From Hamadaea tsunoensis DSM 44101 (GTDB taxonomy: Bacteria; Actinomycetota; Actinomycetes; Mycobacteriales; Micromonosporaceae), in assembly GCF_000428945.1 (NCBI RefSeq), contig NZ_KE386821.1, positions 245,330-309,329 of the forward strand: a stretch of DNA of 64,000 nt, written 5' to 3'. The position numbers were made by a program, and so were the translations under genes. Of the stretch, positions 18,901-36,914 are shown piece after piece. The first letter of the stretch is position 1, and each line of letters begins with the position of its first letter. The notes under the pieces were generated by a model. The model was not told where the DNA came from. It saw nothing but the letters and a program-made list of their open reading frames with translations, and made no database searches.

Positions 18901-19510
18901 CGCGGCCGCACTGTCCAGTCTGGACGAAGCGCGTCGCTGTCAGCCCGAGCACGACAACCCCGCGTGGTGGCCCGGCCGCTCGCTGCGGGCGACGGCGCTG
19001 GCCGCGCTCGGGCGGCCCGCCGAGGCGCTGGCGCTGGCCGAGCAGGAGGTCGAGCACGCGCGCCGGTGGGGGGCGCCCCGCGTCCTCGGCCGCAGCCTGC
19101 GCATCCTCGGCGAACTACGCGGAGCCGACGGACGCGCGGACCTGGAGGAGGCGCTGGCGCTGCTGTCGGCCGGCCGGGCGCGGCTGGAACATGCCCGGGT
19201 CCTGGCGGCACTGGCCCGCATCGGCCCCGAGCGGGAAACGATTCCGCTGCTGGAGCAGGCGTACGCGCTGGCCCAACGGTGCGGCGCGGCGGGTCTGGCC
19301 CGGGACGTGGCGGCCGAGTTCGAGCGGCGGGGCGCGGCGGTTCCTCCGGTCGAAGGCACGGCCGCGCTGACCGCGGTCGAGCGGCGGATGCTCGCCATGG
19401 CCGCGGAGGGCGCGGGTGCCCGGGAGATCGCCCAGGCGCTGTTCATCACGCCGCGCCTGGTCCAGACGATGCTCGCGGCGGTCCGGCAGCGCCGCGACGG
19501 CCGCGGGTAG
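15929..19510 (+). CDS. SARP-family regulator with AAA ATPase and C-terminal LuxR-type helix-turn-helix
   Basis: Large (1193 aa) cytoplasmic transcription activator. Domains: winged-helix DNA-binding domain (about 8-100; LSILGDVTASNGG, GRRQRAVLALLLL, LIDSLWGEDVPPSASGALQA), bacterial transcriptional activator (BTAD) domain (about 110-255), ATPase with Walker A GRAGIGKT (about 313-320) and Walker B LVLSIDDLQW (about 421-430), a long TPR-like helical middle, and a LuxR-like C-terminal helix-turn-helix (about 1145-1193; LTAVERRMLAMAAEGAGARE). GTG 15929 follows GGAGGG by 11 bases. SARPs bind direct repeats with 11-bp period ahead of a -10 box; exactly such repeats precede the two transcription units immediately downstream (19529 and 20958), so it likely activates the FAD oxidoreductase and the five-gene cassette. 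The signal is unknown. Confidence 0.9.
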   Translation: MPGGEDGLKLSILGDVTASNGGRLIDLGGRRQRAVLALLLLGRGDVIAADHLIDSLWGEDVPPSASGALQAYISHLRRRLEPEGTARARGNIIASKGGGYALALDEDAVDAWRFESLVRTAGTVDPQAATAALTAALALWRGPALAEYADRPWAQPEAIRLAGLRGVAREQLVAARLATGESAVLVPGLEALVAEEPLREERWRLLVLALYRAHRQGDALAALRRARQTLADELGVDPGPALRALEAEVLAQSPALDLAPPTVTVTVGEPVPVPPAGRAGGDDVLFDRELELAEIRACLGDALSGQARLLLVEGRAGIGKTRLLIEARRLAAERGLSSLAARGSQIEKEYGFGAVRQLFEPLLADPGRRDGLLLGSALSAAAVFDVAGMGGGAEPQQRTDNLLATLHGLYRLTANLCADGPLVLSIDDLQWCDSGSLRFLAYLVRRLEGLPILIVATLRTGEPHDDEALLAELMHDPSTVRVQPSALTEHGVAGLVDRVLGRAEPAFVTTCHRVTMGNPLLLRQLLRALQAEGVRPDAAHADTVIAIGSRAVSSMVLMRLARLPEATTATARAVAVLGNGAALPAVAALSGLAETDAVNAIAVLARAEVLRDEYPLSFVHPLVADAVYRDLPPGERQLHHERAARVLAAAGAQAEQVAAHLLQVPHRRDPWTVGILRAAAARAAGRGAADAAVTYLLRALAEPPTPEERPDVLLELGLIEATMDGLAAVGHLREAYEILTDPVRRADVALTLVRALVFAGARGEGTAVARRIMAELPDDLVDARQGLTGLARLCGYMHGLEESEWRSGPVPEIVGTGPGARMLASALAWEGVVDGVDRHRAVELARFAVADGVLLRVDTGLLWIVATVVLQAADEDADALWAQGSVFSYEQGSLFGLLSVHLWEAWGKLCHGNLQEAFEGLLTSKEQQTMWGSLIGQAYNDAYLVLAQLELGDVAGARDFADSVRDRGSFGDGARLNYEAQACVELAEGRPAAALSSLDEARRCQPEHDNPAWWPGRSLRATALAALGRPAEALALAEQEVEHARRWGAPRVLGRSLRILGELRGADGRADLEEALALLSAGRARLEHARVLAALARIGPERETIPLLEQAYALAQRCGAAGLARDVAAEFERRGAAVPPVEGTAALTAVERRMLAMAAEGAGAREIAQALFITPRLVQTMLAAVRQRRDGRG

Positions 19511-20957: not shown

Positions 20958-21001
20958 TTCAACTGCGTTCCAAGTCGCCCCCAAGTACGCCGGGTGAAGC
21001 T
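20958..21001 (+). promoter_or_regulatory. Three 11-bp-spaced SARP-type repeats and -10 before the five-gene cassette
   Basis: TTCAACT (20958-20964), TCCAAGT (20969-20975) and CCCAAGT (20980-20986) repeat with exact 11-bp period. GAAGCT (20996-21001), 9 bases further, is a plausible -10 box. The spacing is that of SARP operators, and a SARP gene lies 1.4 kb upstream. The cassette SD GGGGGAG and ATG 21037 follow. Confidence 0.65.
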
Positions 21002-21036
21002 TCCGGCACAGGGAATCCGAACTGGGGGAGTACACC

Positions 21037-23484
21037 ATGTCGACGCCGGAGACGGCCGCGGCGGCCAGCGGCTGGCGGCTCGCGGATCGTCTGAAGACGA
21101 TGCCGTCGGTGCTGGCCGGCCCGATCCTGCGGCACACCAGCGACACCACCGTGACCGTCTGGCTGGCCTTGCAGGAGGCCACCGCGGTGAGCCTGACCGT
21201 CTACGACAACCCGGACGGGACGGGAGCGCCGGTCGCCGCCACCGCGGTACCGGCGCCCACCGTGGCCCTGGGCAGGAGCCTGCACGTCGTGGCGGTCACC
21301 GCGAACGTCATGCCGCCGCTGCCGAGGCTAGGGGAAGGCGTCACCTACTACTACGACGTCCAGTTCACCGGGGGCAAGCTCACCGGGGGCAAGCGGCTCA
21401 AGGACGAGGGCGTCCTGGCGTTCGGCGGCACGGACGCCGGCCGGATCCAGACGATCACCTTCGGCGGCGACAGGCTGCCGAGCTTCGCGGTGCCGCCGGC
21501 GGACCTCGGCCGGCTGCGGATCCTGCACGGCTCGTGCCGCAAGCCGCACGCCGACGAGTACGACGGGCTCGGCGCCGTCCACCATCTCATCGAGGCGTCG
21601 CGCTGGTCGGCGACCGACGCCGACCCGTGGCCGCTGATCCGCCCGCATCTGCTGATGCTCACCGGCGACCAGATCTACGCCGACGACGTCGCCGACTGCG
21701 TGCTCGCGATGTGCACCGACTTCGGCGACGAGCTGCTGGGCTGGACCGGCGGGGAACCGTTGCCGGTCCTGGGCAAGACCCCGGCCGCGTACGCGCCGGG
21801 CAATCGGGCGGCCCTCGTCACCGACTACGGCGGCTTCACCGGCTCGATGGTCGACGCGCCGGAACTGGCGAAGAGCCAGCTGATGGGCTTCGGCGAGTAC
21901 GTCGCGATGTACCTGCTGGTCTGGTCGCCGGTGCTGTGGCCGGCCCAGTTGCCCGCGACGTCCGCCGAGTACGACGCCGGCGAGCGCGAACGGGTCGAGA
22001 AGATGCGCTCGACCCTGCCCCAGGTACGCCGGGCGCTGGCCAACGTCATCACCTACATGTCCTGGGACGACCACGAGGTCACCGACGACTGGAACCTCAA
22101 CCGCGAATGGTGCCGGCGGGTCTGGGGCGAGGCCGGCCAGACCGAGGGCCGCCCGGTCGGCCGGCGGATCGTCACCAACGGCATGCTCGCCCACGCCGTC
22201 TTCCAGGCCTGGGGCAGCCTGCCGGAACAGTTCACCGGCAACACCCCGGGCGCCCGGCTGCTGGCGCTGCTGCCCCAGTGGGACGGCGCCCCGGCCCATC
22301 AGCCGACGCTCGACCGGATCGCGGACCTGCTCGGCGTACCGACGGGGAAGCTGCCGTCGGGCGGCGTCGACCGGTTGCCGCGCGCCGGCGACTCGCTGCG
22401 CTACCACTACAAGCTCACCTGGCTGGGGCGTCCCTACGAGATCCTGGTCACCGACTCGCGTACGGACCGGGCCTTCGACCCCAAACCGATGGTCCCGCCC
22501 GCGGTCATGTCCGACGAGGCGATCGCCGAGCAGCTGCCGGCCGTCGCCGACCCGCCCTACCTCACCATCGCCGTCGTCCCCGGCCCGGTCCTGGGCGTGC
22601 CGTGGATCGAGGAGAAGCAGGAGGAGCCCACGCCGGAGATGATCTGGGGCCACGACGCGGAGGCCTGGGGGCTGCGGCAGAAGACCCTGCACCGGCTGCT
22701 GGGGCAGCTGGCGCACCGGCCGCGGGTGGTGCTGCTGTCCGGCGACGTCCACTATGGATTCACCATCCACGCCAGCGTGTGGAACCAGCAGCCCTACGGC
22801 ACGACCGCGCCGCTGGCCACCCCGCTGCGCAGCGAGATCGCGCAGTTCACCGCGAGCGCCTTCAAGAACGAGACCAATTCCTACCTCGGCCTGACCACCG
22901 ACAAGCTGCACCTCGTCGGCTGGAACGCCCTGCCCGGCTTCGCCTGGGTGCCGAAGAACCCGGCCGACGAGGCCGGCTGGGCCGAGCCGCTGGACTACTG
23001 GACCGAATGGCGCCCGAGCGGCTCGACGACGCTGCAGCTGCACTTCGACAAGGTCCCCGCCCGCCTCGACGTCAGCGTGCCCGGAGAGTTCCCGCACTAC
23101 TACGTCCCCGAGCACTGGCGGCACCGCATCCGCTACGGCACCGGCGTGCGCAGCGACAAGCAGCCGCCGGCGACGCCGGTGACCCGGCCCGCGCCGGGCT
23201 CGGACAAGTCAGCCTTCGCCGCGTGGTACAGCGGCCTGTCCACCTCGTTCGCCTCGGCGAAGCGGACCGGGTCCGGCACCCAGCTGATCGGCAAGAACAA
23301 CCTCGGCGAGATCCGGTTCGCCCCGGACAGCTCGCCGAGCCGGCCGGCCCTGGCCGCCAAGCACGTCCTCTGGTGGCAGATGACCGCGTCCGGGCAGCCG
23401 GACTACGCCACCGCCTTCGACGTGATCCTCAACCCCGCGGACGCCAGTGCCGTCCCGCCGAGCCATGTGGAGCGCCCGCAATGA
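21037..23484 (+). CDS. PhoD-like metallophosphatase without signal peptide (cassette gene 1)
   Basis: Predicted metal-dependent phosphomonoesterase or phosphodiesterase of 815 aa. PhoD-type motifs appear in order: HGSCRKP (about 164), LTGDQIYADD (about 207, metal-binding Asp), MSWDDHEVTDDW (about 342) and LLSGDVHYGF (about 566). An N-terminal beta-sandwich (about 24-150) matches the usual PhoD N-domain. Unlike classical PhoD it has no Tat or Sec signal, so it probably acts in the cytoplasm or within a complex. GGGGGAG lies 6 bases before the ATG. It heads a chain of five genes joined by 4-bp overlaps, behind SARP-type repeats. Its partners in the cassette are of unknown function, so the substrate is open. 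Confidence 0.85.
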   Translation: MSTPETAAAASGWRLADRLKTMPSVLAGPILRHTSDTTVTVWLALQEATAVSLTVYDNPDGTGAPVAATAVPAPTVALGRSLHVVAVTANVMPPLPRLGEGVTYYYDVQFTGGKLTGGKRLKDEGVLAFGGTDAGRIQTITFGGDRLPSFAVPPADLGRLRILHGSCRKPHADEYDGLGAVHHLIEASRWSATDADPWPLIRPHLLMLTGDQIYADDVADCVLAMCTDFGDELLGWTGGEPLPVLGKTPAAYAPGNRAALVTDYGGFTGSMVDAPELAKSQLMGFGEYVAMYLLVWSPVLWPAQLPATSAEYDAGERERVEKMRSTLPQVRRALANVITYMSWDDHEVTDDWNLNREWCRRVWGEAGQTEGRPVGRRIVTNGMLAHAVFQAWGSLPEQFTGNTPGARLLALLPQWDGAPAHQPTLDRIADLLGVPTGKLPSGGVDRLPRAGDSLRYHYKLTWLGRPYEILVTDSRTDRAFDPKPMVPPAVMSDEAIAEQLPAVADPPYLTIAVVPGPVLGVPWIEEKQEEPTPEMIWGHDAEAWGLRQKTLHRLLGQLAHRPRVVLLSGDVHYGFTIHASVWNQQPYGTTAPLATPLRSEIAQFTASAFKNETNSYLGLTTDKLHLVGWNALPGFAWVPKNPADEAGWAEPLDYWTEWRPSGSTTLQLHFDKVPARLDVSVPGEFPHYYVPEHWRHRIRYGTGVRSDKQPPATPVTRPAPGSDKSAFAAWYSGLSTSFASAKRTGSGTQLIGKNNLGEIRFAPDSSPSRPALAAKHVLWWQMTASGQPDYATAFDVILNPADASAVPPSHVERPQ

Positions 23485-26400
23485 CGTCACCCGTCGTTCC
23501 CGCCACCGCGCCCGCGCCGCCCGCGGGCCCGGCCGACGCGCGTACCGTGTTGCTGCGCGAGGTCACCCTGCTGCTGGCCCCGCTGCGCGCGGCCGTCGAC
23601 GACCCCGCCTGGCGTACCGACCTGTTCGCCGCGATCGGCTGGAACCTTGACGCGATCGCCGGTTTCCCCACCGCCAGGCTCGAAACCCTCCTCGCCGCGG
23701 TCCGTGACGCCGTGGACCGCCTCCAGCCGCTCGTCGACCAGCCGACCGCCGACCTGCAGGCCTACAAGCCGGCCCTCGCGGCCCTCAAGAAATGCTTCGA
23801 CGCCGTACGCGCGCTCAAGACGGCCTTCGACGGCTGGACCGGGATCGCCCTGCCGGACGCCCCGGCGATCGGCACCGACCTGGTGAACTACCTCGTCGCG
23901 ACCTACCTGCGGCGGCACCGGCCGACCCTCGGCGCCGTCCTGTGGGCACTGTCGCTGATGGACGGTCCGCCGCCGCCCGTCGCGCCGGTGATCGACCCGG
24001 CCACCGGCAAGGTCGCCCGCTTCTCCTCGACGACCCCGCGCGTACGCCTCGACCGGCTGCCCGCGCTCGTCGGCGACCCGGTCGGTCAGCTGCGGGCGCA
24101 CTACTTCACCAAGGCCGGGCTGTCGGACCGGGCGGCCACCGACGCCGTCGCCGATCTGCTCCTGCCGGCGATCGGCGGCCTGCTCAACCGCCTCGGTACG
24201 CCGATCACCGCCCTCTACGGCGACGACGGGGCCGACCCCGCCGACGCGGGCCGGCATCTGCTGCACGTGTTCGTGCGTACCGGCGACGGCTCGTTCGAGG
24301 ACGGCGAGGCCGGCTTCGAAGTCGTCCTCGGCCTCGCCGGGGACGAGGACGGCCGGCTCGGCCTGGTGATCGCGCCGAGAGGCGCGGTCGCGTTCCCCGA
24401 CACGTTCGGCGACTGGGCCGCCACCCTCACCGCGACGCTGCAGACCGCCTCGGTCATCGCGATCGGCCCCGACGGGCTGACCACCGACCTGCCCGACGCG
24501 ACCGCCCTCAACCTGCGTGCGGACCTCGGGCTCGTGCGTACCGGCGCGACGATCCGGATCGGCGGCAAGACCGGCACCCGGCTGGAGATCGACGGCCCGG
24601 TCCAGGTCACCGGCTTCGCCCAGCTGACCCGCGACTACCAGGACTTCGGCGTCGAGTTCAGCTGCGGCAAGGCCCGGCTGGTCGTGTCCGGCGCCGACGG
24701 GGACGGCTTCCTCGGCAAGGTCCTGCCGGAGAACGCCACCCTCGAATTCGAGCTCGGCATCGGCTGGTCCCGGCGGCGCGGCCTGTTCCTGACCGGCGGC
24801 GCCGCGCTCGCCGCCCACTTCGACGTCGGCGCGGTCCTCGGCGACGTGGCCCGGCTGGACTCCCTCGACGTCGAACTGCTCCCGGCCGGTCCGCAGGACC
24901 CGGTGAAGGCGCTGACCCTCAGGGCGACCGCGTCCGGCCAGGTACGCCTCGGCCCGGTAGGCGTGACGGTCCAGGGCGTCGGGATGAGCGCCCGGCTGTC
25001 GTTCCCCGACGGCGGCGGCAACCTGGGCCCGGCCGACCTCGACCTCGGCTTCCAGCCCCCGCACGGGGTGGCGCTGCGTATCGACGGCGGGGCCGTCACC
25101 GGAGCCGGGTTCCTCGCCTACGACGCCGACGCGGCCAAGTACGCCGGCGGCATCGACCTGGAATTCGCCAAGCTGCGGCTGTCGGCGCTGGGCCTGCTCG
25201 CCACCCGGATGCCGGACGGGCGGCCCGGGTTCTCCTTGCTGGTCGTCATCAACGCCCAGTTCCCCAAGCCGATCCCGCTCGGCTTCGGCTTCAACCTCGC
25301 GGCCGTCGGCGGCATCGTCGGCGTCAACCGGGCCGCCGACGTCGACCGGATCCGGGCCGGACTGCGGGCGGGGTCCCTCGCCGCGATCCTCGCCCCCGGC
25401 GACGTCCTCGGCAACGAGCGCCGCCTGCTCGACGACCTCGACGCGCTGTTCCCGGTGACCCCCGGCCGGCACCTGTTCGGGCCGACGGCGCGGCTGACGT
25501 GGGGCGTACCGACGGCGGTGACGATCGACCTGGCCCTCGCCCTCGAACTGCCGAAACCGTTGCGGTTCATCGCCGCCGGCCGCGTACGCACGCTGCTGCC
25601 GGACGAACGCAAGGCCGTCGCCGTGATCAACATGGACGCCCTCGGAGTCCTCGACACCGGCGAGGGAACCCTTTCTCTCGACGCCACCCTCTACGACTCG
25701 CAACTGGCCGGCTGGCGGCTGTCGGGCGACATGGCGCTGCGGGCCCGCTGGACCGGCAGGAGCGAGTTCGTGATGAGCGCCGGGGGCTTCCACCCCCGGT
25801 TCACGCCGCCGATCGGGTTCCCGCAGCTGCGCCGCATGACGATGGAGATCGGCGAGGACAGGTTCTGGCTGCGGCTGCAGGCGTACCTGGCGCTGACGTC
25901 GAACACGCTGCAGTTCGGCTCCCGCGTCGAGTTCCACGCCGAGTCCGGCGACTTCACCGCCGACGGGCACTTCACCTTCGACGCGCTGATCCGGTTCGCG
26001 CCGTTCGGGTTCGAGTTCGACCTGTCCCTCGGGGTCGCCATCCGCTGGAAGGGCCGGCTGCTGCTGGGCGTCACCGCCGACCTCTACGTGTCCGGCCCCG
26101 GCCGGTGGCAGGTCCGCGGCCACGCCGAGATCAAGCTGCTGGGGCTCAGCGCCACCGTCCGGTTCAAGGCCGCCTTCGGCACCGAGACCGCACTGCCGCC
26201 CGCACCACCGCAGGACGTCGCCGCCCTGGTCCGCGCCGCGCTCGCCGAAGCAGGCGCCTGGCACGTGGAGGAGCGCGCCGCCCTGCCGGCCCTCACCATG
26301 CGGTCCGGCATCACCCTGTCCGACCTGCTCGTGTCGCCGTCGGCGCGGGTCAGCGTACGGCAGAAGATCGCACCGGTCGGCGGCACGCACCTCGACCACT

Positions 26401-27029
26401 TCGGCCAGGCGCCCATCGACGGAGCCGCCGAGCTGCGCATCGACTCCGCGACCCTCGGCAGCGCCCTCGCGCAGCTCGCCGACGTCAAGGACGAGTTCGC
26501 GCCCGCCCAGTTCTTCGAGCTGTCCGACGAGCAGAAACTCGCCGCCGACGGGTTCGACCAGCTGCCGTCCGGCGTCACCTTCACCGCCACCGACGCCGTC
26601 GCGTACGACCATGCGGGGCCGGCGGCCGTCGTCATCGCGTACCAGACGAAGGTGATCGACGAGCTGGACGCGGGCCCGGGCAAGAGCGTCGCCGGCGGCC
26701 TGCCGAAGCCGACCCCCACCTGGGTGCTCGGCGGCGCGCACCTGGACCGGCTGGCCCACAGCGGCGCCGCCGGCCGGGCCGCGACCCGGTCGACGGGACT
26801 GGCCCGGTTCCAGGCCCCCGGCCTGCCGCTGGCCGTCCGCGACCCCGCGTTCGTGATCGTCGACAAGGCGACCCTGCGCCCGGCCGGACCCGCACCGGCG
26901 GTCAAGGAGCGCTGGAGCCGCAGCGAGGCCGCCGACCGGCTGCGCCGCTGGGCCGCCGGCCACCCCGACCACGACCTGATGATCGTCCCGGCCCACGAGG
27001 CCGCCACCGGAAGCGCGGTGCCCGCATGA
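23481..27029 (+). CDS. DUF6603-like 1182-aa protein (cassette gene 2)
   Basis: Large protein of unknown function. Start overlaps the upstream stop (ATGA). Residues 1 to about 170 are mostly helical (LLREVTLLLAPLRAAVDDPA, FDAVRALKTAFDGW). From about 200 to 900 it is dominated by alternating hydrophobic/polar strands ending in Gly turns, with PIPLGFGFNLAAVGGIVGVN (about 596-615) and LFGPTARLTWGVPTAVTIDL; I recall this pattern in proteins annotated DUF6603, an assignment I could not check. The strand-rich core could form a long sheet or groove; this is inference. The last 280 residues form a separate domain (IDGAAELRIDSATLGSALAQ). No signal peptide or transmembrane helix is evident, so it is probably cytosolic or released with a complex. 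Confidence 0.75.
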   Translation: MTSPVVPATAPAPPAGPADARTVLLREVTLLLAPLRAAVDDPAWRTDLFAAIGWNLDAIAGFPTARLETLLAAVRDAVDRLQPLVDQPTADLQAYKPALAALKKCFDAVRALKTAFDGWTGIALPDAPAIGTDLVNYLVATYLRRHRPTLGAVLWALSLMDGPPPPVAPVIDPATGKVARFSSTTPRVRLDRLPALVGDPVGQLRAHYFTKAGLSDRAATDAVADLLLPAIGGLLNRLGTPITALYGDDGADPADAGRHLLHVFVRTGDGSFEDGEAGFEVVLGLAGDEDGRLGLVIAPRGAVAFPDTFGDWAATLTATLQTASVIAIGPDGLTTDLPDATALNLRADLGLVRTGATIRIGGKTGTRLEIDGPVQVTGFAQLTRDYQDFGVEFSCGKARLVVSGADGDGFLGKVLPENATLEFELGIGWSRRRGLFLTGGAALAAHFDVGAVLGDVARLDSLDVELLPAGPQDPVKALTLRATASGQVRLGPVGVTVQGVGMSARLSFPDGGGNLGPADLDLGFQPPHGVALRIDGGAVTGAGFLAYDADAAKYAGGIDLEFAKLRLSALGLLATRMPDGRPGFSLLVVINAQFPKPIPLGFGFNLAAVGGIVGVNRAADVDRIRAGLRAGSLAAILAPGDVLGNERRLLDDLDALFPVTPGRHLFGPTARLTWGVPTAVTIDLALALELPKPLRFIAAGRVRTLLPDERKAVAVINMDALGVLDTGEGTLSLDATLYDSQLAGWRLSGDMALRARWTGRSEFVMSAGGFHPRFTPPIGFPQLRRMTMEIGEDRFWLRLQAYLALTSNTLQFGSRVEFHAESGDFTADGHFTFDALIRFAPFGFEFDLSLGVAIRWKGRLLLGVTADLYVSGPGRWQVRGHAEIKLLGLSATVRFKAAFGTETALPPAPPQDVAALVRAALAEAGAWHVEERAALPALTMRSGITLSDLLVSPSARVSVRQKIAPVGGTHLDHFGQAPIDGAAELRIDSATLGSALAQLADVKDEFAPAQFFELSDEQKLAADGFDQLPSGVTFTATDAVAYDHAGPAAVVIAYQTKVIDELDAGPGKSVAGGLPKPTPTWVLGGAHLDRLAHSGAAGRAATRSTGLARFQAPGLPLAVRDPAFVIVDKATLRPAGPAPAVKERWSRSEAADRLRRWAAGHPDHDLMIVPAHEAATGSAVPA

Positions 27030-30000
27030 CCACCCCCACCGAACTCGCCGCGGCCACCCCGGCCGCCCAGCGCCACCTGCTGTCCTGGGTACGCGACGGA
27101 CTCGCCGGCCGGCTCACCGAGGTCGACCCCGGCAGCGGACCGGTCCCCGCGCGGGCCACGCTCGCCACGGGCCTGACCGTCAACGGTGCCGCCGTCACCG
27201 GCCCGCGGCTCGCCCTGCACGGACCCGGCGACGTGACCGGTGTCGACCCGCGGCAGGTCGTGCGGACCGATCCGGCGCCGGGGGCGAAGAACTTCGAGGC
27301 GACGCATTACGCGCTCGTCGAGTTCGACGATCCCGGGCTGCCGTGGCGGCTCACCCCGGCCGCCGCCCACCCGGACAAGGGGCTGCGGCCCTGGCTGGTC
27401 CTGATCGTCGTCGACACCGCCACCCCCGGCGTACGCCTGTCCACCGACCCTCGCCGTCCGCTGCCGGTCCTCGACACGCCGCTCGCCGAACTGCCGGACC
27501 TGGCCCGGTCGGCCGCCTGGGCGCACGCCGAAGTCGTCGCCGCCGACGGCGAGGACATCGCGAAGCTGCTCGCCGACCGTCCCGAACGGACGGTCTCCCG
27601 GCTGATCGCCGAACGGAAACTGGCCGACGGGCGCGCCTACCTCGCCTGCGTCGTTCCGGCGTTCGAGCACGGGCGGCTGGCCGGACTCGGCGAACCCGTC
27701 CCCGCGACCGACACCACCCCGCCCGCGTGGACCGGCACCACCGGCACCGTCCGCCTGCCCGTCTACCACCACTGGACCTTCTCGACCGGCGTCGACGGCG
27801 ACTTCCCGGCGCTCGCCGGGCGGCTGCGGCCGGCGGTCCTCGGCGACGGCGGCAAGCAGCTGTACTACCGCGACGCCGACCCGGAGGTGACCAAGGCGCT
27901 CGGCACCGACCCCGGCATCACCGCCGTCCTGCCCGCGCTCACCGCGCCCGGCTCGGCCATGACCGCCCCGGTGCACCCCGGGTTCGCGACCGCCCTGACC
28001 GGCATTCTCGCGCGTACCAGCACGGTGACGGCGCCGCTGTACCTCGGTGTCCACACCGGACACGGGTCCGGCTGGACCGGCGCCGAACCGCCGTGGCTGC
28101 GCCAGCTCAACACCGACCCCCGGCTGCGCGCCGCCGCCGGCCTCGGCGCCGAGGTCGTGCGCATCCACCAGGAACCCCTGATGGCCGCCGCCTGGGAGCA
28201 GGCCGCCGAACTCGCCGGCGTCAACCGCGAACTCCAGCAGGGACAGGTCGGGCGCGCGGTCAGCGACAGCCTGCACCGCCGCTACTTCACCACAGCCGCA
28301 AACGCTGCCGCGACCGCGGCCGGGCTCGCCGATACGCGTACCCTGGCCGCCGCGGCCGACCGGGACGACACCGTGATCGCGCGTACCGCACGGGCGTTCG
28401 GGCGGCTTCCCGGACCCGACGGCACGGTCGCGGCGCAACTCGCCACGCACGAGGCGACCGCCGCTATCGCCTCCGCCGACGTGCAGCGCGCCGCCCGGCC
28501 CACCGGCCCCGCCGCGCGGGCCGGCGGTGCCACCCCCTTCTCGCCGCTGGCCTCCGGGCTGAGCCCCACCGCCGCCGGCACCCTCGTGCCCGCCCCGCCG
28601 ATCCAGGCCGGCTCCGACACGGGTGTCCTCGACCGCTACACCGGTGGTGCCGCCCGCTACCGCGACATCACCAGCGACGTCGCGGCCGCCGCCACGGACT
28701 GGTGGAGCCGGCCGTACGCCGCGGGACTGCCCCTGGTCACCCCCGGCCCGCTCGGCTACCTGACCGACCTGACGGTGTTCCAGGAGAATCCGGCGCGTAC
28801 GCAGCTGACGGCGACCCTGCTGCGGACGGTCGACTTCGACGGCCGGCCCCGCGAGCAGAGCAGCCCGATCCCGCTGGCCACCGACCCCGCCGCCCCGACC
28901 GTCCGGCTCGTCGGCGGCCTCGTGCACCGCGTCGACCCCGGACAGCCGACGACCCTGCTGGCCGGCGTACGACCGGGCTTGTTCGTGGACAGCTGGGAGC
29001 CGTGCACCCGCAGCCTGCCGCGCGCCGCCGACGGCACCTATGGCACCACTCCGTACGCGCCGCTGCCGACCTTCCGCTGCGGCACCCTGCACGGCGCGGA
29101 CGTGACCCTGCGCCGCCGGGCCGGGCAGCCGGACGCCGCGGCCGAGCTGGTCATGCTGTGGAGCGGCGCGGACCCGGACGGGGCCGGCGCGATCAGCACC
29201 TGCAGCTACCAGCTCGACACCCGCACGGTGCTGCACCCGCAGCGCAACATCCGCGTCTTCCTCGGCTACGCCCCGGCCGACTTCGCCGCCGACCTCGTGC
29301 CGATCACCGCCCGGGCCGGGCAGTCGATCACCGAGCCGACGGACCTGGCCGCGGCGTTTCTCAACCCCACGTTCGTCACCGAGTCCGGGCCGGGCGGCAT
29401 CGTCGTGCACCCCGTCTGGCAGCTCGACTGGACCGTCGGCCGCGCCTTCGGTACGCCGCAGGAGAGCTGGACCGCCGTGCACACGATCACGCTGGGCCAG
29501 CGGGTCTGGGACGACACCACGAGCGGCCGGCTGAGCCTGTCGGTGTCCGATCTGGACGGGGACGGCGACCCGGAACTGGTCGTGCACCTCACCTTCGACG
29601 AGCGGCGGGAGACCGGCCCGGCCCGGCGGGTGACCCGCCAGCGCATCGGCTTCGGCCTGCACCCCGACGGCTCGATCGAACACTGGGAGGCCCCGGTCGA
29701 CCTGCCGATCGAGGCGCTGACCCCGGACGCCGCGACGATCGCGTTCCTCGGCGACCTCGACAACCAGCGGCTCGGCCGCGTCGCCGGGATCGGCCACAAC
29801 TTCCAGTCCATCGCGGTCGCCCACCAGGCCTTGCTGATCCGCGACGCGACCCGTGGGCAGGACCCGCCGATGCGGGCGGCGTACGAGATCGGCAGCGTGG
29901 CCACCTGGGTCAGCGACTCCCTCGATCCGGCCACCACGATCCCGGCCGCCGTCGCCGACCGGATCAGCCCGCTGCCCGCGTCCAGGACGCTCGCCGCCGC

Positions 30001-30757
30001 GCCCCCGGCCGACCCGCTGCGCCCCCGGCTGTACGAGCCGTCGTTCCCGCAGGCGATGGCCGAGCCGCTGCGCGAGCTCTTCCCCGATCTCGTCTTCCCC
30101 GGCGCCGACGCGCTGCCCGACGACAGCGTCGCGCTGATGGCCGGCAACGGCCCGCTCATCGCCGCGTACCTGGCCGGGCTGAACCACGAATTCGGGCGGG
30201 AGATGCTGTGGCGCGGCTTCCCGTCCAGCGGCCGCGCGACCTGGTTCCGCCGGTTCTTCGACGCCCGCAGCGCCGACCCGGCCGGTCCCGCCGGCGACAT
30301 CGCCGACATCGCCACCTGGGGCCGGACCGGCAACCTCGCCGACAAGGTGACCGGCCCGGCCGCGAACGGCAGCGTCATCCTGCTCGTCCGCGGCGAACTG
30401 CTGCGCCGCTACCCCGACCTGGTCGTGCAGGCCGCGCCCGCGGTGAGCACCGCCACCGGCCGCCGGCCCGACGACACCGCCGTCCAGCTGCCCGTCTTCA
30501 CCGGCCGGGCCGGGGCCGACGTGCTGCTGTTCAGCTTCGACATCCCGGCCACCGGCGTACGCGGTGACGGCACCCAGCCCGGCTGGTTCTTCATCTTCGC
30601 CGAACCGCCGACCGAGCCCCGCTTCGCCGGAACGCCCGACTGGACCGGGGCCGGCGCGTACGCGGCCGCGGCGCTGCTGAGCATGCCGTTCCGGGTCGCC
30701 GTGCACGCCTCCGACCTGATCGCCCCCGCGTCACTCACCTCCGGAGCCGAGAAATGA
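27026..30757 (+). CDS. Large conserved protein of unknown function, 1243 aa (cassette gene 3)
   Basis: Start overlaps the upstream stop by 4 bp. No catalytic motif is recognised. Notable segments: ALVEFDDPGLPWRLTPAAAH and LRPWLVLIVVD near the N-terminus, a Ca-binding-like loop DLDGDGDPELVVHL (about 842), LIAAYLAGLNHEFGREMLWR (about 1044-1063) and GWFFIFAEPPTEPRF (about 1186-1200). I remember the GLNHE..RE.LWR and F.E.PTEPRF strings from long hypothetical proteins of other phyla, which suggests a widespread family, but no function is known to me. There is no signal peptide or transmembrane helix. The tight coupling suggests equimolar production with the neighbours, as for subunits of one assembly. 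Confidence 0.72.
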   Translation: MTTPTELAAATPAAQRHLLSWVRDGLAGRLTEVDPGSGPVPARATLATGLTVNGAAVTGPRLALHGPGDVTGVDPRQVVRTDPAPGAKNFEATHYALVEFDDPGLPWRLTPAAAHPDKGLRPWLVLIVVDTATPGVRLSTDPRRPLPVLDTPLAELPDLARSAAWAHAEVVAADGEDIAKLLADRPERTVSRLIAERKLADGRAYLACVVPAFEHGRLAGLGEPVPATDTTPPAWTGTTGTVRLPVYHHWTFSTGVDGDFPALAGRLRPAVLGDGGKQLYYRDADPEVTKALGTDPGITAVLPALTAPGSAMTAPVHPGFATALTGILARTSTVTAPLYLGVHTGHGSGWTGAEPPWLRQLNTDPRLRAAAGLGAEVVRIHQEPLMAAAWEQAAELAGVNRELQQGQVGRAVSDSLHRRYFTTAANAAATAAGLADTRTLAAAADRDDTVIARTARAFGRLPGPDGTVAAQLATHEATAAIASADVQRAARPTGPAARAGGATPFSPLASGLSPTAAGTLVPAPPIQAGSDTGVLDRYTGGAARYRDITSDVAAAATDWWSRPYAAGLPLVTPGPLGYLTDLTVFQENPARTQLTATLLRTVDFDGRPREQSSPIPLATDPAAPTVRLVGGLVHRVDPGQPTTLLAGVRPGLFVDSWEPCTRSLPRAADGTYGTTPYAPLPTFRCGTLHGADVTLRRRAGQPDAAAELVMLWSGADPDGAGAISTCSYQLDTRTVLHPQRNIRVFLGYAPADFAADLVPITARAGQSITEPTDLAAAFLNPTFVTESGPGGIVVHPVWQLDWTVGRAFGTPQESWTAVHTITLGQRVWDDTTSGRLSLSVSDLDGDGDPELVVHLTFDERRETGPARRVTRQRIGFGLHPDGSIEHWEAPVDLPIEALTPDAATIAFLGDLDNQRLGRVAGIGHNFQSIAVAHQALLIRDATRGQDPPMRAAYEIGSVATWVSDSLDPATTIPAAVADRISPLPASRTLAAAPPADPLRPRLYEPSFPQAMAEPLRELFPDLVFPGADALPDDSVALMAGNGPLIAAYLAGLNHEFGREMLWRGFPSSGRATWFRRFFDARSADPAGPAGDIADIATWGRTGNLADKVTGPAANGSVILLVRGELLRRYPDLVVQAAPAVSTATGRRPDDTAVQLPVFTGRAGADVLLFSFDIPATGVRGDGTQPGWFFIFAEPPTEPRFAGTPDWTGAGAYAAAALLSMPFRVAVHASDLIAPASLTSGAEK

Positions 30758-33700
30758 CCGCCCCCGCAGCCCCGCCCGCCACCGAGACCGCGGCGGCGAC
30801 CCCGTCCGTGGCCCCCGCTCAGCCGCTGCCGCTGCCCGCCGACGTCCCGATCGCCCTGCTGCCGGTACGCCTGGAGACCCGCTACCACGACGGCAACCTG
30901 CTGATCCGAATCTATCCCGACGTGCTGCACGTGGACGCACACGAGACGGTCCTGACGGCGGCCGAGGCCGGCCACGGTGTCCGCTACTGGGCACAGGTCG
31001 CCGCGGCCGGCACCGACCCCGACCAGCTGCTCGGGGCGTGGCGGGCCCTGACCGCCGAGCACGGCATCGAACGCGCCGCCTGGATCGCCCGGCGTACGCG
31101 TGACGGCGCACCGGCGGAGACACCGGCGACGAGCACCTGGACCCGGGCCCCGATGGCGAGGCTGCTGCCGACCCGGTGGCGGGTCGCCGGCTACCGCGAA
31201 TGGGGTCCGGGCAATCCGCCGACGCTGCACTTCGACGTGGCCGGCAAGGAGATCACCGGCGATCTCGCGGTCGGACCCGACCCCGCCGCGACCGGCCTGC
31301 CACCGGAGTCCGATGAGGACACCCTGATCACCCCCGGCATGCGGTGGATGGTCGACTACCAGGCGGCCCTGGACGCGGGCATGGCGGTCACCGTCACGAA
31401 GGCCGACGACGCCAACCTCGGACTACCGCTCACCTGGCTGATCGCGTACGGAGTGGACGAGAAGGGCGACCCGGTCACCGGCGCCGCCCGCCTGGCCGGG
31501 CTCCTCGAAGCCCACCACTACACCGACGGTCTCGGGTACGCCGACCCCGGCACCCCCACCAACAACACCGAACTGGGCCGGTCCGGGCTCGACCCGCTCG
31601 GCGACAAGATCAGCGAGCGCTACCGGATCGCCGACGGTACGCGTACCGGCGCGGCCGCGACCCCCGCGGCGTCGATCGCGGCCCAGCTGGCCGCCGCGCT
31701 GGGCTTCGACCCGGCCGCCGCGACCGTGCTGCAGCGCGATCCCGCCGGCCGCCGACCGGACGCGCAGGCCGACGTCAACGCCGTCCTGTGGCCGTCCACC
31801 TGGGGCTACTTCCTGCTGCACGTGCTCGACGGCATCGACCTGCCGAGTATCCGCCAGGTCCGCCGCCATTTCATCGACCACGTCCGGGCCGGCGGTGCCC
31901 TGCCCACCCTGCGGGTCGGCGACCAGCCGTACGGCGTACTGCCGGTGATGTCCTTGAAGCACTGGGCCGACCGCGAAGGCGGCACCGGCGTGCACACGGC
32001 CATGGTCCGGCTGCTGCGCCAGCTGCAGCCCGCCTTCGGCGAGGCCAGCTGGAAGGCGACCGTCGGCAAGCGGTGGGCCGGCCAGCCCGGCGTCGACGCC
32101 ACCGAGCGCTACCACCGGCTGCTGGCCACCCAGGCGCAGGCCGTCGACTACGTCGGCCGCAGCGCCCTGGGCCCGGAGTACGTCGGCGACCTGTGGCGGT
32201 TCCTGCGCCTCGACTTCGACTCCGCGTGGCGGCAGGCACCCCGCCGGCAGGCCAACGCCGTCCTGTCCGCGGTCGGCCTGCCGGTCGACCAGCGGCACAC
32301 CGGCACCGTCTTCGCCGGCGAGGCGTACCCGGTGCTGCACACCCTGACCGGCGCCGACGCGGCGGCTTATCTGACCGAACTGGCCGCGCTGGCCCCGGCG
32401 GCGCTCGCGGCCGCGACCGAGCGCGGGCAGACGCCGCTGTTCTACCGCCTCGCGCGGCACTCGGCCCTGCAGGAATGGTGGACGGCGGTCATCGCGACCC
32501 GCGGCGACCGGGCGCTGCGCGAGAAGGAACTGATCGATGCGGACCCGCTCGCCCCGCCGACCGCGACGCTGTGGCGCGGCCTGGACGCGGCCGCGCCCGG
32601 CCAGCCCGGGCTGACCGTCGAGCAGTACCTCACCCGCGCCGCCGCGGGCGACCCGAACGTCACCGACCTGCGCGAGTTCGGCGATCGCAGCCGCAGCCTC
32701 GCGGCGGCGATCCGCCGGGAGGACGTCACCCCCGACCTGCTCGACGGGCTCGTCCGCGGCGGGCTCGACCTGGCCGCCCACCGCATCGACGCGTGGATCG
32801 GCTCGTTCGCCACCCGGCGGCTGGCCCACGTGCGCGGGCGGCAGCCGCAGCTGCTGGCCGTCGGCGGCTTCGGCTGGCTGGCCAACGTCGGCCCGGCCCC
32901 GCTGAGCTCGGTGGACACGTTGCCGCCCAAGGAATCCGCGCCCCTGTACACCGACGCGGCCAACGCCGGGCACGTCCTCGCCCCGTCGCTGCAGCACGCC
33001 ACCACCGCCGCCATCCTGCACGCCGGCTACGTGGCCCGCGGCGGCCGCGCGGGAAAGCCCGGCGCCGTCGCGGTCAACCTCAACGCCGATCGCGTACGCC
33101 TCGTCCAGCACCTCACCGAAGGCATCAGCGCCGGACAGCCGCTCGCCGCCCTCGTCGGCTACCGGTTCGAACGCGCGCTGTCCGAAGGGGGAGTGGACGG
33201 CGTACCGGCGATGATCCTGCCCTTCCGCATCCTCGCCCCGTACACCGCGCAGGTGCTCACCCCGGACGGCGGCGCGACCGACGTCACCCGGCCGGCGAGC
33301 CTCGCGGGATCCGTCGCGGACGGCGTGGAACTCGTGCGCCGCCTGCACGCGGGAACCATCCCGTGGGGCAGCGCCCCCGACCCGGCGCAGCCGACGGTCA
33401 CGCTTCCCGCACCGGGCAGCCACGCCTACGACGCGTGCCTCGCGGCGCTGCGATCCGCCGCCGACGCGCTGGACGCACTGGCCGACGCCACGCTGGCCGA
33501 AGGCGTACACCACCTCGCGGCCGGGAACCCGACCCGCGCGGGGGCCGTCCTCGACGCGCTCGCCAAGGGGGAGGCTCCGCCACCGGAGCTCGACGTCGTG
33601 CGTACCCCGCGCAGCGGCGCCGTGCACACCCACCGGCTGATGTTCCTCGGCACCGTCGACGCCGGCGCCGACTACCGGATCTGGCCCGCCGACGGCCGCC

Positions 33701-35142
33701 AGATCCGCGCCGACATCGAACCCACCGTCAACGGCTGGGCGGGCCGGCTGCTCGGCGACCCGTCCCGCGTACGCTGCAAGGGCGTCTGGACCGGCGCCGA
33801 CGGCACGGTGCTCGCGACCGGTGAGACGACTCTCGACCAGCTCGCCGTCTCGCCGCTGGACATGATCGCGCTGGCCGGCGACGACCGCTCCGGCGGCCGG
33901 TACGAGCTGCGCCAGCGCTTCATCGACCGGCTACGGCTGCTGCGCCCGCCGACGGTACCCGACGAGATCATGCCCGTGCCCGACTTCGGCCGCCAGCCCG
34001 GCTGGTCCGCGCAGACCCTCAGCGTCGAGGAGTTCCTCCAGCTCGTGGCGGCCGTCCGAGCGACCCTGGCCGGAGCCCGCCCGGTACGCGCCGAAGACCT
34101 CGCCGGCCCCGGCGGTACGCGTACCGTCCAATGGGGAATCGCCGACCTCGCGGGCCGGGTGACCGTCGTGCTCAACAGCTTCACGCAGACCCGCGCGCTG
34201 CTGTCGGCGGCCGTGGACGCCGGAGACATCGGCGGGATGGGCGGGCACCTGGTCACCTTCGCCGCCCGGGGACTGCCGGGCGCGTACCCGCAGACCGGGC
34301 ATCCGTGGAACGACGCCTGGCGGGACGAGTTGCGGGTGAGGGCGCGCGGCGTACTGTCCGAAGTGGATCGGAGGATGGCCGAGGAGGCGCGGTTGCGCGG
34401 CGCCTTCGACGACGCGGCCGCGACCGACGACCAGCGGGTCGCCCACCACATCGCCCGGCTGCGCAGCCTGCTCGGCGAGGACTTCCCGGTCGCGCCCACC
34501 TTCCAGGTGACCGACCGGGCCGCGCTCGCCGACCTGTTCGCCCACTCGAACACGCTGACCGGCGGCGACCCCCTCGCCACCGGCACCTGGCTCGACCGGC
34601 TCGCCCGCGTCCGCAAGGCACCCGCCCGACTGCAGTCCGCGTTCCGGTACGCCGAAGCGACCGGTGCCGCGATCTCGACCGACCTGACCATCGCCCAGCT
34701 GCCCCACCGCGACGGCGACGCCTGGGCGGCACTGCCCGGGGCGCCGAAGACGGGGCGGACGGCGTTGGCGGTGCACACGGTCCGGCCGATCAACCCGGCC
34801 GCCTCCCTCGCCGGACTCGTCTTCGACGAGTGGACCGAGACGGTGCCGGGCGACTCCGAGGTCGCCGGGCTCACCTTCCATTACGACGCGCCGAACTCCC
34901 GCGCCCCGCAGGCCGTCCTGCTCGCCGTCCCGCCGGGCGCCGACGGCACCTGGACCACCGAACAGCTGCGCGACACCGTGGCCGAGGCCCTCGACGTGGC
35001 CCGGTCGCGGGCGGTGACGCTGCCGACCCTTGACGAGTACGGCCACTTCCTGCCCGCGATCTACCTCGGGCTCAACGACGCGGGCGCGACCGTCTCGACC
35101 GACCTGACCGGCGGGGCCGGTCTCGAAGGAGCGATCCGATGA
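30754..35142 (+). CDS. Large conserved protein of unknown function, 1462 aa (cassette gene 4)
   Basis: Largest cassette protein; start overlaps the upstream stop by 4 bp. An Ala/Pro-rich N-terminus (1-30) leads into IALLPVRLETRYHDGNLLIR and IYPDVLHVD (about 33-61). Further landmarks are WGYFLLHVLDGIDLPS and LRVGDQPYGVLP (about 386-397). The middle is helical (RIDAWIGSFATRRLAHVRGR), and the end contains FDEWTETVPGDSEVAGLTFH and FHYDAPNSRAPQAVLLAVPP. No enzyme signature, signal peptide or membrane segment was found. I recall LLPVRLETRF and GDQPYGVLP as recurring strings in uncharacterised giant proteins that travel with relatives of the flanking genes. Function unknown; a structural or scaffold role is a guess. 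Confidence 0.72.
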   Translation: MTAPAAPPATETAAATPSVAPAQPLPLPADVPIALLPVRLETRYHDGNLLIRIYPDVLHVDAHETVLTAAEAGHGVRYWAQVAAAGTDPDQLLGAWRALTAEHGIERAAWIARRTRDGAPAETPATSTWTRAPMARLLPTRWRVAGYREWGPGNPPTLHFDVAGKEITGDLAVGPDPAATGLPPESDEDTLITPGMRWMVDYQAALDAGMAVTVTKADDANLGLPLTWLIAYGVDEKGDPVTGAARLAGLLEAHHYTDGLGYADPGTPTNNTELGRSGLDPLGDKISERYRIADGTRTGAAATPAASIAAQLAAALGFDPAAATVLQRDPAGRRPDAQADVNAVLWPSTWGYFLLHVLDGIDLPSIRQVRRHFIDHVRAGGALPTLRVGDQPYGVLPVMSLKHWADREGGTGVHTAMVRLLRQLQPAFGEASWKATVGKRWAGQPGVDATERYHRLLATQAQAVDYVGRSALGPEYVGDLWRFLRLDFDSAWRQAPRRQANAVLSAVGLPVDQRHTGTVFAGEAYPVLHTLTGADAAAYLTELAALAPAALAAATERGQTPLFYRLARHSALQEWWTAVIATRGDRALREKELIDADPLAPPTATLWRGLDAAAPGQPGLTVEQYLTRAAAGDPNVTDLREFGDRSRSLAAAIRREDVTPDLLDGLVRGGLDLAAHRIDAWIGSFATRRLAHVRGRQPQLLAVGGFGWLANVGPAPLSSVDTLPPKESAPLYTDAANAGHVLAPSLQHATTAAILHAGYVARGGRAGKPGAVAVNLNADRVRLVQHLTEGISAGQPLAALVGYRFERALSEGGVDGVPAMILPFRILAPYTAQVLTPDGGATDVTRPASLAGSVADGVELVRRLHAGTIPWGSAPDPAQPTVTLPAPGSHAYDACLAALRSAADALDALADATLAEGVHHLAAGNPTRAGAVLDALAKGEAPPPELDVVRTPRSGAVHTHRLMFLGTVDAGADYRIWPADGRQIRADIEPTVNGWAGRLLGDPSRVRCKGVWTGADGTVLATGETTLDQLAVSPLDMIALAGDDRSGGRYELRQRFIDRLRLLRPPTVPDEIMPVPDFGRQPGWSAQTLSVEEFLQLVAAVRATLAGARPVRAEDLAGPGGTRTVQWGIADLAGRVTVVLNSFTQTRALLSAAVDAGDIGGMGGHLVTFAARGLPGAYPQTGHPWNDAWRDELRVRARGVLSEVDRRMAEEARLRGAFDDAAATDDQRVAHHIARLRSLLGEDFPVAPTFQVTDRAALADLFAHSNTLTGGDPLATGTWLDRLARVRKAPARLQSAFRYAEATGAAISTDLTIAQLPHRDGDAWAALPGAPKTGRTALAVHTVRPINPAASLAGLVFDEWTETVPGDSEVAGLTFHYDAPNSRAPQAVLLAVPPGADGTWTTEQLRDTVAEALDVARSRAVTLPTLDEYGHFLPAIYLGLNDAGATVSTDLTGGAGLEGAIR

Positions 35143-36848
35143 CCACCTCCGACGAGCGGACTCCCTCGGCGACCACCTGGACCCGGCTGGAGCCGCAGCA
35201 CGCCTCGCCCGACGAGCGCATCGGCGCGGCGGCGGCGATCGCCGATCCCGCCTGGCTGCTGGCCCGGCAGTGGCAGTTCGGCGAATTCCACGGCAGCGAC
35301 GGCGGCTCGCCGGCGTCGGCCCGGATGCGGATGCACGCCGGCACGTTCTCCGGCTACCGCGGCCGTGGGATCGGCGGCGACCTCGACCGCTTCGACCCGT
35401 ACGCCCAGCACACGATGCCGCTGGAGGTACTCGTCGAGCGGGAGCCGGCCGACCCGGTCGACCTCACCCTGCGCGCGGACGGCGGCCGGCGGTTCGCCCG
35501 GCTGCTCGACCGCCACGGGGCCGGCGCCTACCGGCAGGCGTTCGTCGACCGGTACCCGCTGCCCGCGACCGCACCCGGCGCGCCCGCGCACGCCGACAGC
35601 GCAGCCCTGCTGGCCGTTCTCGCCGGCCGGCTGGCCGACGGTCAGGCCCTGGCCGCCGCGTGCACCTCGGCTTCGGGGCAGCCCGTCGTACCGGCCGTGC
35701 CCGCCGTCGCGGCGGCCGACCGCGCCGCGGTGCTGGCCGCCGTCACCGAGTTCCTGGCGTGGTGGTCGTCCTTCGTGGACCATCCCGGCGCCGGCGGGCA
35801 GGCCTGGGTGCCGACGCGGATGGAGCACGCGTTCGGTGTCGGCGCGCTGCTCGGCCCCGACAACACGCAGGTCAACCTGGTCGCCACCGAGTATCCCGGC
35901 GGCACCCTGGACTGGTACGACCTCGACGTGGCCACCGACGGCACCTGGGTTCCGGCCGACGCCCCCGGCCGCGAGATCGTCCGGACCGGCCTGCCGACCC
36001 CGGTACGCTATCCCGGCATGCCGGCCGCCCGTTTCTGGGAGTTCGAGGACGCCCGCGTCTACCTCGGCGGTGTCGAGGCGGGCCGCGACGACCTCGGCCG
36101 GATGCTCCTGGCGGAGTTCGCGATCCTCTACTCCGACGACTGGTTCGTCATCCCGGTCGAACTGCCGGTCGGCACCGTCGCCCGGGTCGTGTCCCTCGTC
36201 GTCGCGGACACGTTCGGCGTGCGTACGCTGATCCAGCCGGCCGCCCACGGTGACTGGGACATGTACCGGCTGACCGGTGCCGGGGCGGACCAGGCCCTCT
36301 TCGTCCTGCCGCCGACCCTCGCGGGCAGCCTCGACGGCGACCCGGTCGAGGAGGTCGTGCTCCTGCGCGACGAAGCCGCCAACGTGGCCTGGGCGGTGGA
36401 GACGCGCGTACAGAGCGCGGCCGGACGCCCCGCCGACCGGCACGAGCAGTACCTCGCCCAGCTGCGCGCCGCCGGCGACCCGGTCGCGCCGGCGGTACCC
36501 GGCGGCGTCGACTTCGACTACCGGCTGCGTACCGGGCAGCCGCCCGAACACTGGATCCCGCTCATCCCCGAGGCGCACTCCGACGGGCTGCGGCTGCGCC
36601 GGGACGCGCTGGCCAAGCCCGGCACGGACATCCCGATCCCACCACTCGGCGAGCTGCTCACCGCCGCGGAGTGGATCGCGGCCGAGGAGGTGCCCCGCGA
36701 AGGCGCCCGGATCACGCGCAGCTGGCAGCTGGCCCGGTGGGGCGACGGGTCGACGCATCTCTGGCTGTCACGCCGCAAGGTGACCGGGCGCGGCGAGGCG
36801 TCGAGCGGGCTGCGATTCGACGTCCTCCAGCGAGCCGACGCCGGATAA
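35139..36848 (+). CDS. Conserved protein of unknown function, 569 aa (cassette gene 5)
   Basis: Last gene of the overlapping run (start overlaps the upstream stop by 4 bp). The N-terminus carries a very characteristic block, DPAWLLARQWQFGEFHGSDG (about 36-55). Later come PAARFWEFEDARVYLGGVEA, LAEFAILYSDDWFVIPVELP, VEEVVLLRDEAANVAWAVET and the near-terminal WQLARWGDGSTHLWLSRRK. Trp-rich, soluble, no signal peptide. The WLLARQWQFGEF and FA..YS.DWF..P strings recur, as far as I remember, in hypothetical proteins of cyanobacteria, myxobacteria and actinobacteria beside relatives of the two upstream genes. Function unknown. Followed only by a weak hairpin. Confidence 0.73.
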   Translation: MTTSDERTPSATTWTRLEPQHASPDERIGAAAAIADPAWLLARQWQFGEFHGSDGGSPASARMRMHAGTFSGYRGRGIGGDLDRFDPYAQHTMPLEVLVEREPADPVDLTLRADGGRRFARLLDRHGAGAYRQAFVDRYPLPATAPGAPAHADSAALLAVLAGRLADGQALAAACTSASGQPVVPAVPAVAAADRAAVLAAVTEFLAWWSSFVDHPGAGGQAWVPTRMEHAFGVGALLGPDNTQVNLVATEYPGGTLDWYDLDVATDGTWVPADAPGREIVRTGLPTPVRYPGMPAARFWEFEDARVYLGGVEAGRDDLGRMLLAEFAILYSDDWFVIPVELPVGTVARVVSLVVADTFGVRTLIQPAAHGDWDMYRLTGAGADQALFVLPPTLAGSLDGDPVEEVVLLRDEAANVAWAVETRVQSAAGRPADRHEQYLAQLRAAGDPVAPAVPGGVDFDYRLRTGQPPEHWIPLIPEAHSDGLRLRRDALAKPGTDIPIPPLGELLTAAEWIAAEEVPREGARITRSWQLARWGDGSTHLWLSRRKVTGRGEASSGLRFDVLQRADAG

Positions 36849-36914
36849 CGGACGGCGGCGCGGGTCCGGGCGGGCGGCGCGAGGTCAGGGCGGTGGCACC
36901 TCCCGCGGACGGAG

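Follow-up and report, generated by a model that had tools for sequence, protein, structure and literature searches.

Classical secreted members of the PhoD-like phosphatases (PF09423) leave the cell by twin-arginine translocation (Tat), and the DUF6603 family (PF20248) has no described function. Contractile injection systems are known in extracellular and thylakoid-anchored forms, and in the Anabaena system All3314 is Cis19, the crown, possibly engaged in target binding (the passages on this protein in PMC8894136). In antibiotic clusters under regulators of the Streptomyces antibiotic regulatory protein (SARP) type, the boxes of the SARP-LAL class (LAL, large ATP-binding regulators of the LuxR family) consist of CGGCAAG heptamers separated by 4 bp, which gives units of 11 bp (the part of PMC5930380 dealing with these boxes). 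Here we compare with these systems a five-gene cassette in a 64,000-nucleotide stretch of Hamadaea tsunoensis DSM 44101 (the window; the host assembly is 9.48 Mb). Four of its genes, coding for giant proteins, recur together and in a fixed order in bacteria and archaea, and the gene that leads them varies. P2–P5 stand for the products of genes 2–5, L-numbers for fetched neighbourhoods and G-numbers for genomes. The cassette consists of

21037..23484, + strand, gene 1, PhoD-like protein of 815 aa (PF09423 match and alignment with relatives)
23481..27029, + strand, gene 2 (P2), DUF6603 protein of 1182 aa (PF20248 match)
27026..30757, + strand, gene 3 (P3), 1243 aa, no family match above cut-off, sub-threshold FG-GAP
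30754..35142, + strand, gene 4 (P4), 1462 aa, no known family
35139..36848, + strand, gene 5 (P5), 569 aa, no known family

All five open reading frames of the cassette (21037–36848) lie on the plus strand and start with ATG, and each of the four junctions is a 4-bp ATGA overlap in which the start lies inside the preceding stop, as the first-pass annotation of this DNA had reported together with the gene sizes. Such overlaps are not universal among relatives, in which a 4-bp overlap is possible at 6/18 PhoD–P2, 26/39 P2–P3, 26/38 P3–P4 and 19/40 P4–P5 junctions. The same annotation held that the first product alone has a recognized fold, which is right for genes 3–5, as these have no family, and wrong for gene 2, a DUF6603 protein (PF20248, a family name without a function). 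Its claim that signal peptides and membrane helices are missing agrees with a maximum 19-residue mean hydropathy of 1.81 and with N-termini that do not look like signals by eye. At E ≤ 1 the five proteins had no match in NCBIfam or PADLOC; in PHROGs only two were found, both at chance level. The arrangement is not due to chance, because the same gene order is present in every one of the 40 fetched neighbourhoods described next and in distant phyla.

In 40/40 neighbourhoods from the family (37 genomes) P2-P3-P4-P5 lie on the same strand and in the same order; these neighbourhoods were drawn on P5 and so test order and linkage, not frequency, and in six of them (L088, L102, L104, L109, L118 and L121) a core gene was called in pieces or fused. 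P5 was matched in 46 of 300 family genomes, 42 of them credible (G352, G358, G385 and G498, whose matches are short and weak at E 5e-6 to 3e-4, were left out), and three sampled congeners are without it. Counted on the 42, P5 and DUF6603 occur together in 41 genomes, P5 alone in 1, DUF6603 alone in 14 and neither in 244 (Fisher p = 2.8e-37); the single P5 genome lacking DUF6603 has its P5 match at a contig edge, and with all 46 matches the table reads 41/5/14/240. In a phylum sample DUF6603 was found in 9/296 genomes and P4 in 5/296, all five P4 genomes being among those nine. The order P2-P3-P4-P5 was seen by tblastn in Thermomonospora (L006), G051, G108 and G193, while G288 has P2–P4 in a first stretch and P5 in the next, and G206 has P2–P3 up to a contig end. 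Over a wider range the core keeps its order in Actinomycetota, Pseudomonadota, Gemmatimonadota and haloarchaea, the last three seen on plasmids; plasmid-borne cores come from Streptomyces, Nocardia, Rhizobium, Paraburkholderia, Gemmatirosa and the haloarchaea Salinigranum, Halalkalicoccus, Halobellus and Natrinema. P3 is spread over more than one reading frame or gene in Rhizobium and Gemmatirosa, and in Halobellus P5 lies beyond the end of the fetched stretch, yet a P5 match is listed in the same record. In Paenibacillus (L046) DUF6603 alone is homologous by tblastn. This gene and the DUF6603 genes of L015, L017 and L022 have no recognizable P3–P5 nearby, unlike P2 of the cassette; for the latter three none was seen by tblastn in the fetched neighbourhood. 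The loci of L015 (5511–18378), L017 (1805–13293) and L022 (2247–11309) represent a second DUF6603 locus type with other large proteins that have no Pfam matches; L017 has in addition an Hcp-family gene (PF05638) at a distance of about 3.4 kb.

DNA similarity to the nearest relative (L086 in G557, another genus) is 85.7% over 21061–36849, and to L087 (G419) it is 81.8% over 20967–36844; with flanks added (L128 and L167 for G557, L129 and L168 for G419; 54 kb for the nearest relative) no further match to the window was found at E ≤ 1e-10. Judged from these alignments the cassette is a discrete transferable unit, because DNA similarity to the nearest relative is confined to it. Trees of P2–P5 (54 shared rows) gave rho values of 0.55–0.85 against permuted maxima of 0.26–0.33, with 24–32 of 51 splits in common; since a common organism history would also yield such agreement, it excludes wholesale shuffling of the parts and no more. 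Three haloarchaeal rows cluster together among bacterial rows in the unrooted core tree. When the type of leading gene was placed on a FastTree tree of 55 core rows it changed at least 14 times, with 22 rows lumped as ‘other’ (one of these, L117, being a contig end only) and a minimum possible of 4, and it changed 5 times among the rows of four named types. On this tree inheritance of the leading gene is the rule and its replacement an occasional event.

The gene before P2 in the 40 family loci is PhoD-like in 19, belongs to an M64 cluster in 4 (Pfam on L096, the other three by BLAST), is of the S8 type in 2 and of the phospholipase D (PLD) type in 1, and gives a weak, below-cut-off peptidoglycan (PG)-binding match in 1; it lies on the opposite strand in 2, and 3 loci were not assessable (P2 is fused or is the first gene of the fetched stretch). 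Elsewhere the leading gene encodes an M64 peptidase (L018), a WD40 protein (L020) or a PhoD-like protein (L006, L019, L040 and L042). That of L021 is unmatched and is preceded by PG-binding/SLT genes, that of L044 has a hydrophobic stretch and no Pfam match, and a trypsin-like match lies one gene further upstream in L051 (above cut-off) and L050 (below). Several leading genes, like the neighbours in the second DUF6603 locus type, gave no Pfam match or weak PHROG matches alone. The genes after P5 include an S8 peptidase (L048), a PG-binding protein (L092), LGFP with phage tail lysozyme (L103) and a B_lectin-like gene, below cut-off, in L097. Next to the core, but on the other strand, are DUF2235 genes in L043 (993–4232, annotated, with a PLD-like gene as well) and L020 (4819–6099, by eye).

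In the window, gene 1 reaches 31.4 bits against PF09423 (cut-off 27) through one stretch covering 36/343 profile positions, and its place in the genome-wide search scores 22.2 bits, below cut-off. It carries GSC, GDQIYADD, DDHEVTDDW and SGDVHYGF, which we take to be the metal-binding/catalytic motifs of PhoD-like phosphatases, and in the alignment all four are intact in the window, L006, L019 and L040 (the last one is located further on in L019 and is aligned elsewhere). Thus gene 1 resembles these phosphatases in its score and motifs and differs from them in the shortness of the match, its 815 aa, the lack of a visible signal peptide and the degeneration of some relatives; its N-terminus is not hydrophobic (by hydropathy and by eye) and so shows no sign of the Tat export of secreted PhoD. 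The first-pass interpretation had two parts. The mobile, widely shared module is supported by a fixed-order core in Actinomycetota, Pseudomonadota, Gemmatimonadota and haloarchaea and by a shared unit that ends with the cassette; the multi-subunit particle with an enzymatic component is a conjecture, and the PhoD-like enzyme is no fixed part (it leads 19/40 family loci). A dispersal of genes 3–5, or their membership in a known injection system, would have counted against that interpretation; they occur together, and the core is not tracked by sheath genes (see below).

P2 is a full member of its family (414 bits against PF20248, cut-off 27, profile positions 20–501 of 502), and a family without a described function appears here as one part of a conserved four-gene core. 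Windows with strand-like hydrophobic alternation are 1.84 times as frequent in P2 as in shuffled P2 (56 rows; 0.96–1.16 for P3–P5) and peak at 57% of windows at residues 801–900 of the window protein, a pattern that fits long amphipathic strands in a barrel, groove or sheet. In L089 (12616–19824) and L111 (12133–19899), both on the minus strand, P2 is extended by more than 1,000 N-terminal residues with an alpha/beta-hydrolase-like segment (AHSTAG / AGHGPAG, by eye alone). P3 has two conserved blocks (about 1–420 and 950–1200) flanking a variable middle with FG-GAP repeats that are sub-threshold in the window and above cut-off in L042. P4 and P5 gave no Pfam match; W45, E100, D167, W300, F359 and G537 of P5 are among the residues invariant in 16 relatives. 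Haloarchaeal P5 proteins have C-terminal lamin tail domains in L040 (Pfam) and L044 (annotated), and a Pfam scan of three further P5 proteins (window, L041 and L048) found no such domain. Sequence profiles of P2–P5 against PDB (E ≤ 5) gave coiled-coil, lamin-tail or chance matches alone and no TcA, TcB or TcC chain, and hhalign found no relation among P3, P4 and P5 (P4–P5 E = 0.013 at 3.4% probability); the Paenibacillus protein was kept in the alignments used for both comparisons and left out of the family-search profiles. AlphaFold2 models of gene 5 and gene 2, each run with one homologue (L006), had a mean predicted local distance difference test (pLDDT) score of 30.6 in both cases. P2 was not found in 50,697 phage records at E ≤ 0.01, nor P4 and P5 in viral contigs (pattern scans), P3 lying outside both searches; a phage or prophage structure was set aside, as these scans gave no relatives and the PHROGs matches were at chance level. 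No mention of DUF6603 or PF20248 was found in the literature searched, keyword searches on the system likewise returned nothing relevant, and the part covered of a survey of extracellular contractile injection systems (PMC8213781) held no passage for the terms looked for. The system is not described in the literature searched, and P3–P5 have no family model in the libraries searched.

No signal-peptide-like N-terminus was seen in 34 core proteins from 14 loci of several phyla (hydropathy and eye, no trained predictor), three P2 proteins having a single window just over 1.9 (1.91–1.97). In relatives the core is linked to an endolysin-like gene with two PG_binding_1 domains (693 phage records match it in part, none reaching 80% coverage of it). 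It is strong (E ≤ 1e-100) in 22/300 family genomes, DUF6603 being present in 20 of these (p = 1.2e-14) and P5 in 18 (p = 5e-14); this cut, which keeps 22 of 27 genomes, was picked after inspection of the list, and the other five are partial and without credible P5 or DUF6603. The gene lies at most 20.2 kb from P5 in 15 genomes and about 10–11 kb from a P5-less DUF6603 gene in G588, G594 and the second, partial place of G531. A protein that we label fibre-like follows P5 in 11/40 loci; it has no Pfam, PHROG or phage-record match, and its N-terminus aligns weakly with All3314 (E = 0.076).

Upstream of the cassette lie two features that may bear on its regulation:

15929..19510, + strand, SARP-LAL-type regulator, candidate cassette regulator (BTAD, AAA_16 and Trans_reg_C; LuxR-type GerE below cut-off)
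20970..20986, + strand, CCAAGT-N5-CCAAGT, two direct repeats with an 11-bp period, candidate SARP-type operator about 50 bp upstream of gene 1

A FAD oxidase gene sits between the regulator and the cassette. The repeat pair has 1 match in the window at ≤1 mismatch (0.08 expected by shuffling); the same arrangement precedes gene 1 in L087, and L088 has four related repeats with an 11-bp period. A homologue of the regulator lies beside the cassette in L088 (62% over 930 aa) and, more weakly, in L102 (36% over 333 aa). The nearby SARP-LAL-type regulator and the CAAG-containing repeats of 11-bp period recall the SARP-controlled antibiotic clusters of the PimR type as set out in the same part of PMC5930380, whereas the cassette encodes giant proteins and not biosynthetic enzymes. 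On the other side of the cassette, window positions 39640–44178 encode a protein of 1512 aa that, by eye, starts with a signal-like N-terminus, carries DUF11-like repeats and has an end of the LPxTG type.

We tentatively favour the reading, which may well be wrong, that P2–P5 form a four-protein core complex with an exchangeable, often hydrolytic partner and that it is used against the envelopes of other cells. P2–P5 would be made from one operon with translational coupling and would assemble in the cytoplasm, the core carrying or presenting the exchangeable gene 1 partner, often a hydrolase; contact with membrane or lipid would most likely be made by the DUF6603 protein. As the core proteins looked at showed no export signal, the complex would probably be freed via lysis or another machine; it would then act on the envelope of a competitor, the partner attacking wall, membrane or surface proteins, and in some relatives endolysin-like and fibre-like proteins might join this attack. 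In the window the upstream SARP-type regulator would probably activate the cassette, in the manner of antibiotic clusters. A bolder form of the proposal, that P2–P5 are a sheathless mobile particle common to bacteria and archaea, with exchangeable envelope-attacking enzymes and constituting a weapon class apart from injection systems and Tc toxins, we regard as doubtful.

Several observations weigh against the favoured reading. The PhoD-like active site of L042 is degenerate, with motifs lost in the alignment, and a crude pattern search found all four motif patterns in 2/19 family PhoD-like members (three in L087); because the four motifs are found in few relatives, the PhoD-like protein may be structural in many loci. 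No usable Pfam match was obtained for the gene preceding P2 in 8/40 family loci, and the leading-gene types are clustered on the core tree (14 changes, the mean after shuffling being 24.3), so that swaps are occasional. SARP-like repeats were not found in L086, L006 or L102, and a scan for the repeat pattern in the 40 family loci gave L087 alone (L088 was missed, its first gene having been called too short), so SARP-type control would at most characterize the clade to which the window belongs. The window's own genome has no linked endolysin-like gene, the fibre-like gene is limited to one clade of the core tree, and no immunity gene was noticed, though no systematic search was made.

The cassette might instead be an accessory or cargo of contractile injection systems, its giant proteins forming or loading a delivered attachment, in trans where no sheath is nearby. 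This we judge unlikely. In G337 (L126) a contractile cluster does adjoin the cassette, its sheath lying some 6 kb downstream of P5 and its remaining parts being named by eye, and in G510 another lies upstream of the cassette (L165, by BLAST to L126); these are the sole two among 61 flanks of 12–20 kb (36 downstream, 25 upstream; BLAST with G337 proteins), against a rough expectation of 0.3–0.5, and with a chance of 0.04–0.08 of finding two or more the excess is weak. The weak likeness of the fibre-like protein of 11 loci to Cis19 and PF04984 sheath matches in G193 and on other contigs of the window's genome (C13:229111–229518 and C22:112377–112901) also speak for such a role. The cassette resembles contractile systems in some of its accompanying genes (wall hydrolases and a fibre-like protein). 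Against it, the sheath is as frequent with P5 as without (28/42 P5 genomes and 163/258 others, p = 0.73; 32/14/159/95 with all 46 matches), and no PF04984 match was found in P4-positive G051, G108, G288 and Thermomonospora G296 (outside the family), nor in the nearest relative G557. The window proteins have no match to the contractile-system proteins of L126 at E ≤ 1e-4, in keeping with the earlier remark that sheath, tube and baseplate are missing from the window. From these comparisons the core is not a general part of contractile systems, though there may be some link. In G337 the interval between cassette and contractile cluster (L126 1033–5868) holds a lanthipeptide-precursor-like gene with LanC- and LanB-like genes (by eye).

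Intracellular defence, for example against phages, in which effectors are exchanged around a conserved sensor or scaffold, seems quite improbable to us: the patchy distribution (P5 in 46/300 family genomes, none in three congeners), plasmid carriage, interchangeable hydrolases and lack of visible export signals would suit it, but the five proteins have no PADLOC match at E ≤ 1, cell-wall hydrolases and a fibre-like gene would be odd partners, and SARP-type control would be unusual. The same lack of export signals, together with the intact PhoD-like motifs of the window, L006, L019 and L040, would be expected of a cytoplasmic enzyme megacomplex that serves metabolism or storage, for example phosphate turnover, and has gene 1 as its catalyst; we think this distinctly improbable, as the leading gene was not recognized as PhoD-like in 21/40 family loci (three not assessable), includes peptidases and PLD, and stands before a core that is patchy and mobile. 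It is very improbable that the core proteins are surface or adhesion proteins exported by a non-classical route, a role to which the FG-GAP-like repeats of P3 (over cut-off in L042, below it in the window), the lamin tails ending haloarchaeal P5 and the below-cut-off B_lectin-like gene of L097 might point, since neither signal peptide nor anchor was seen in the 34 core proteins from several phyla.

Four co-inherited giant proteins in bacteria and archaea suggest that annotation has overlooked a multi-protein system. The function of this system can be tested directly in culturable actinomycetes, given its exchangeable leading gene, its transfer as a unit and its antibiotic-type regulation. Should P2–P5 prove to be an antagonism complex they would represent a further kind of delivery or attack machine, and should they instead serve contractile systems they would reveal a large accessory part of these.

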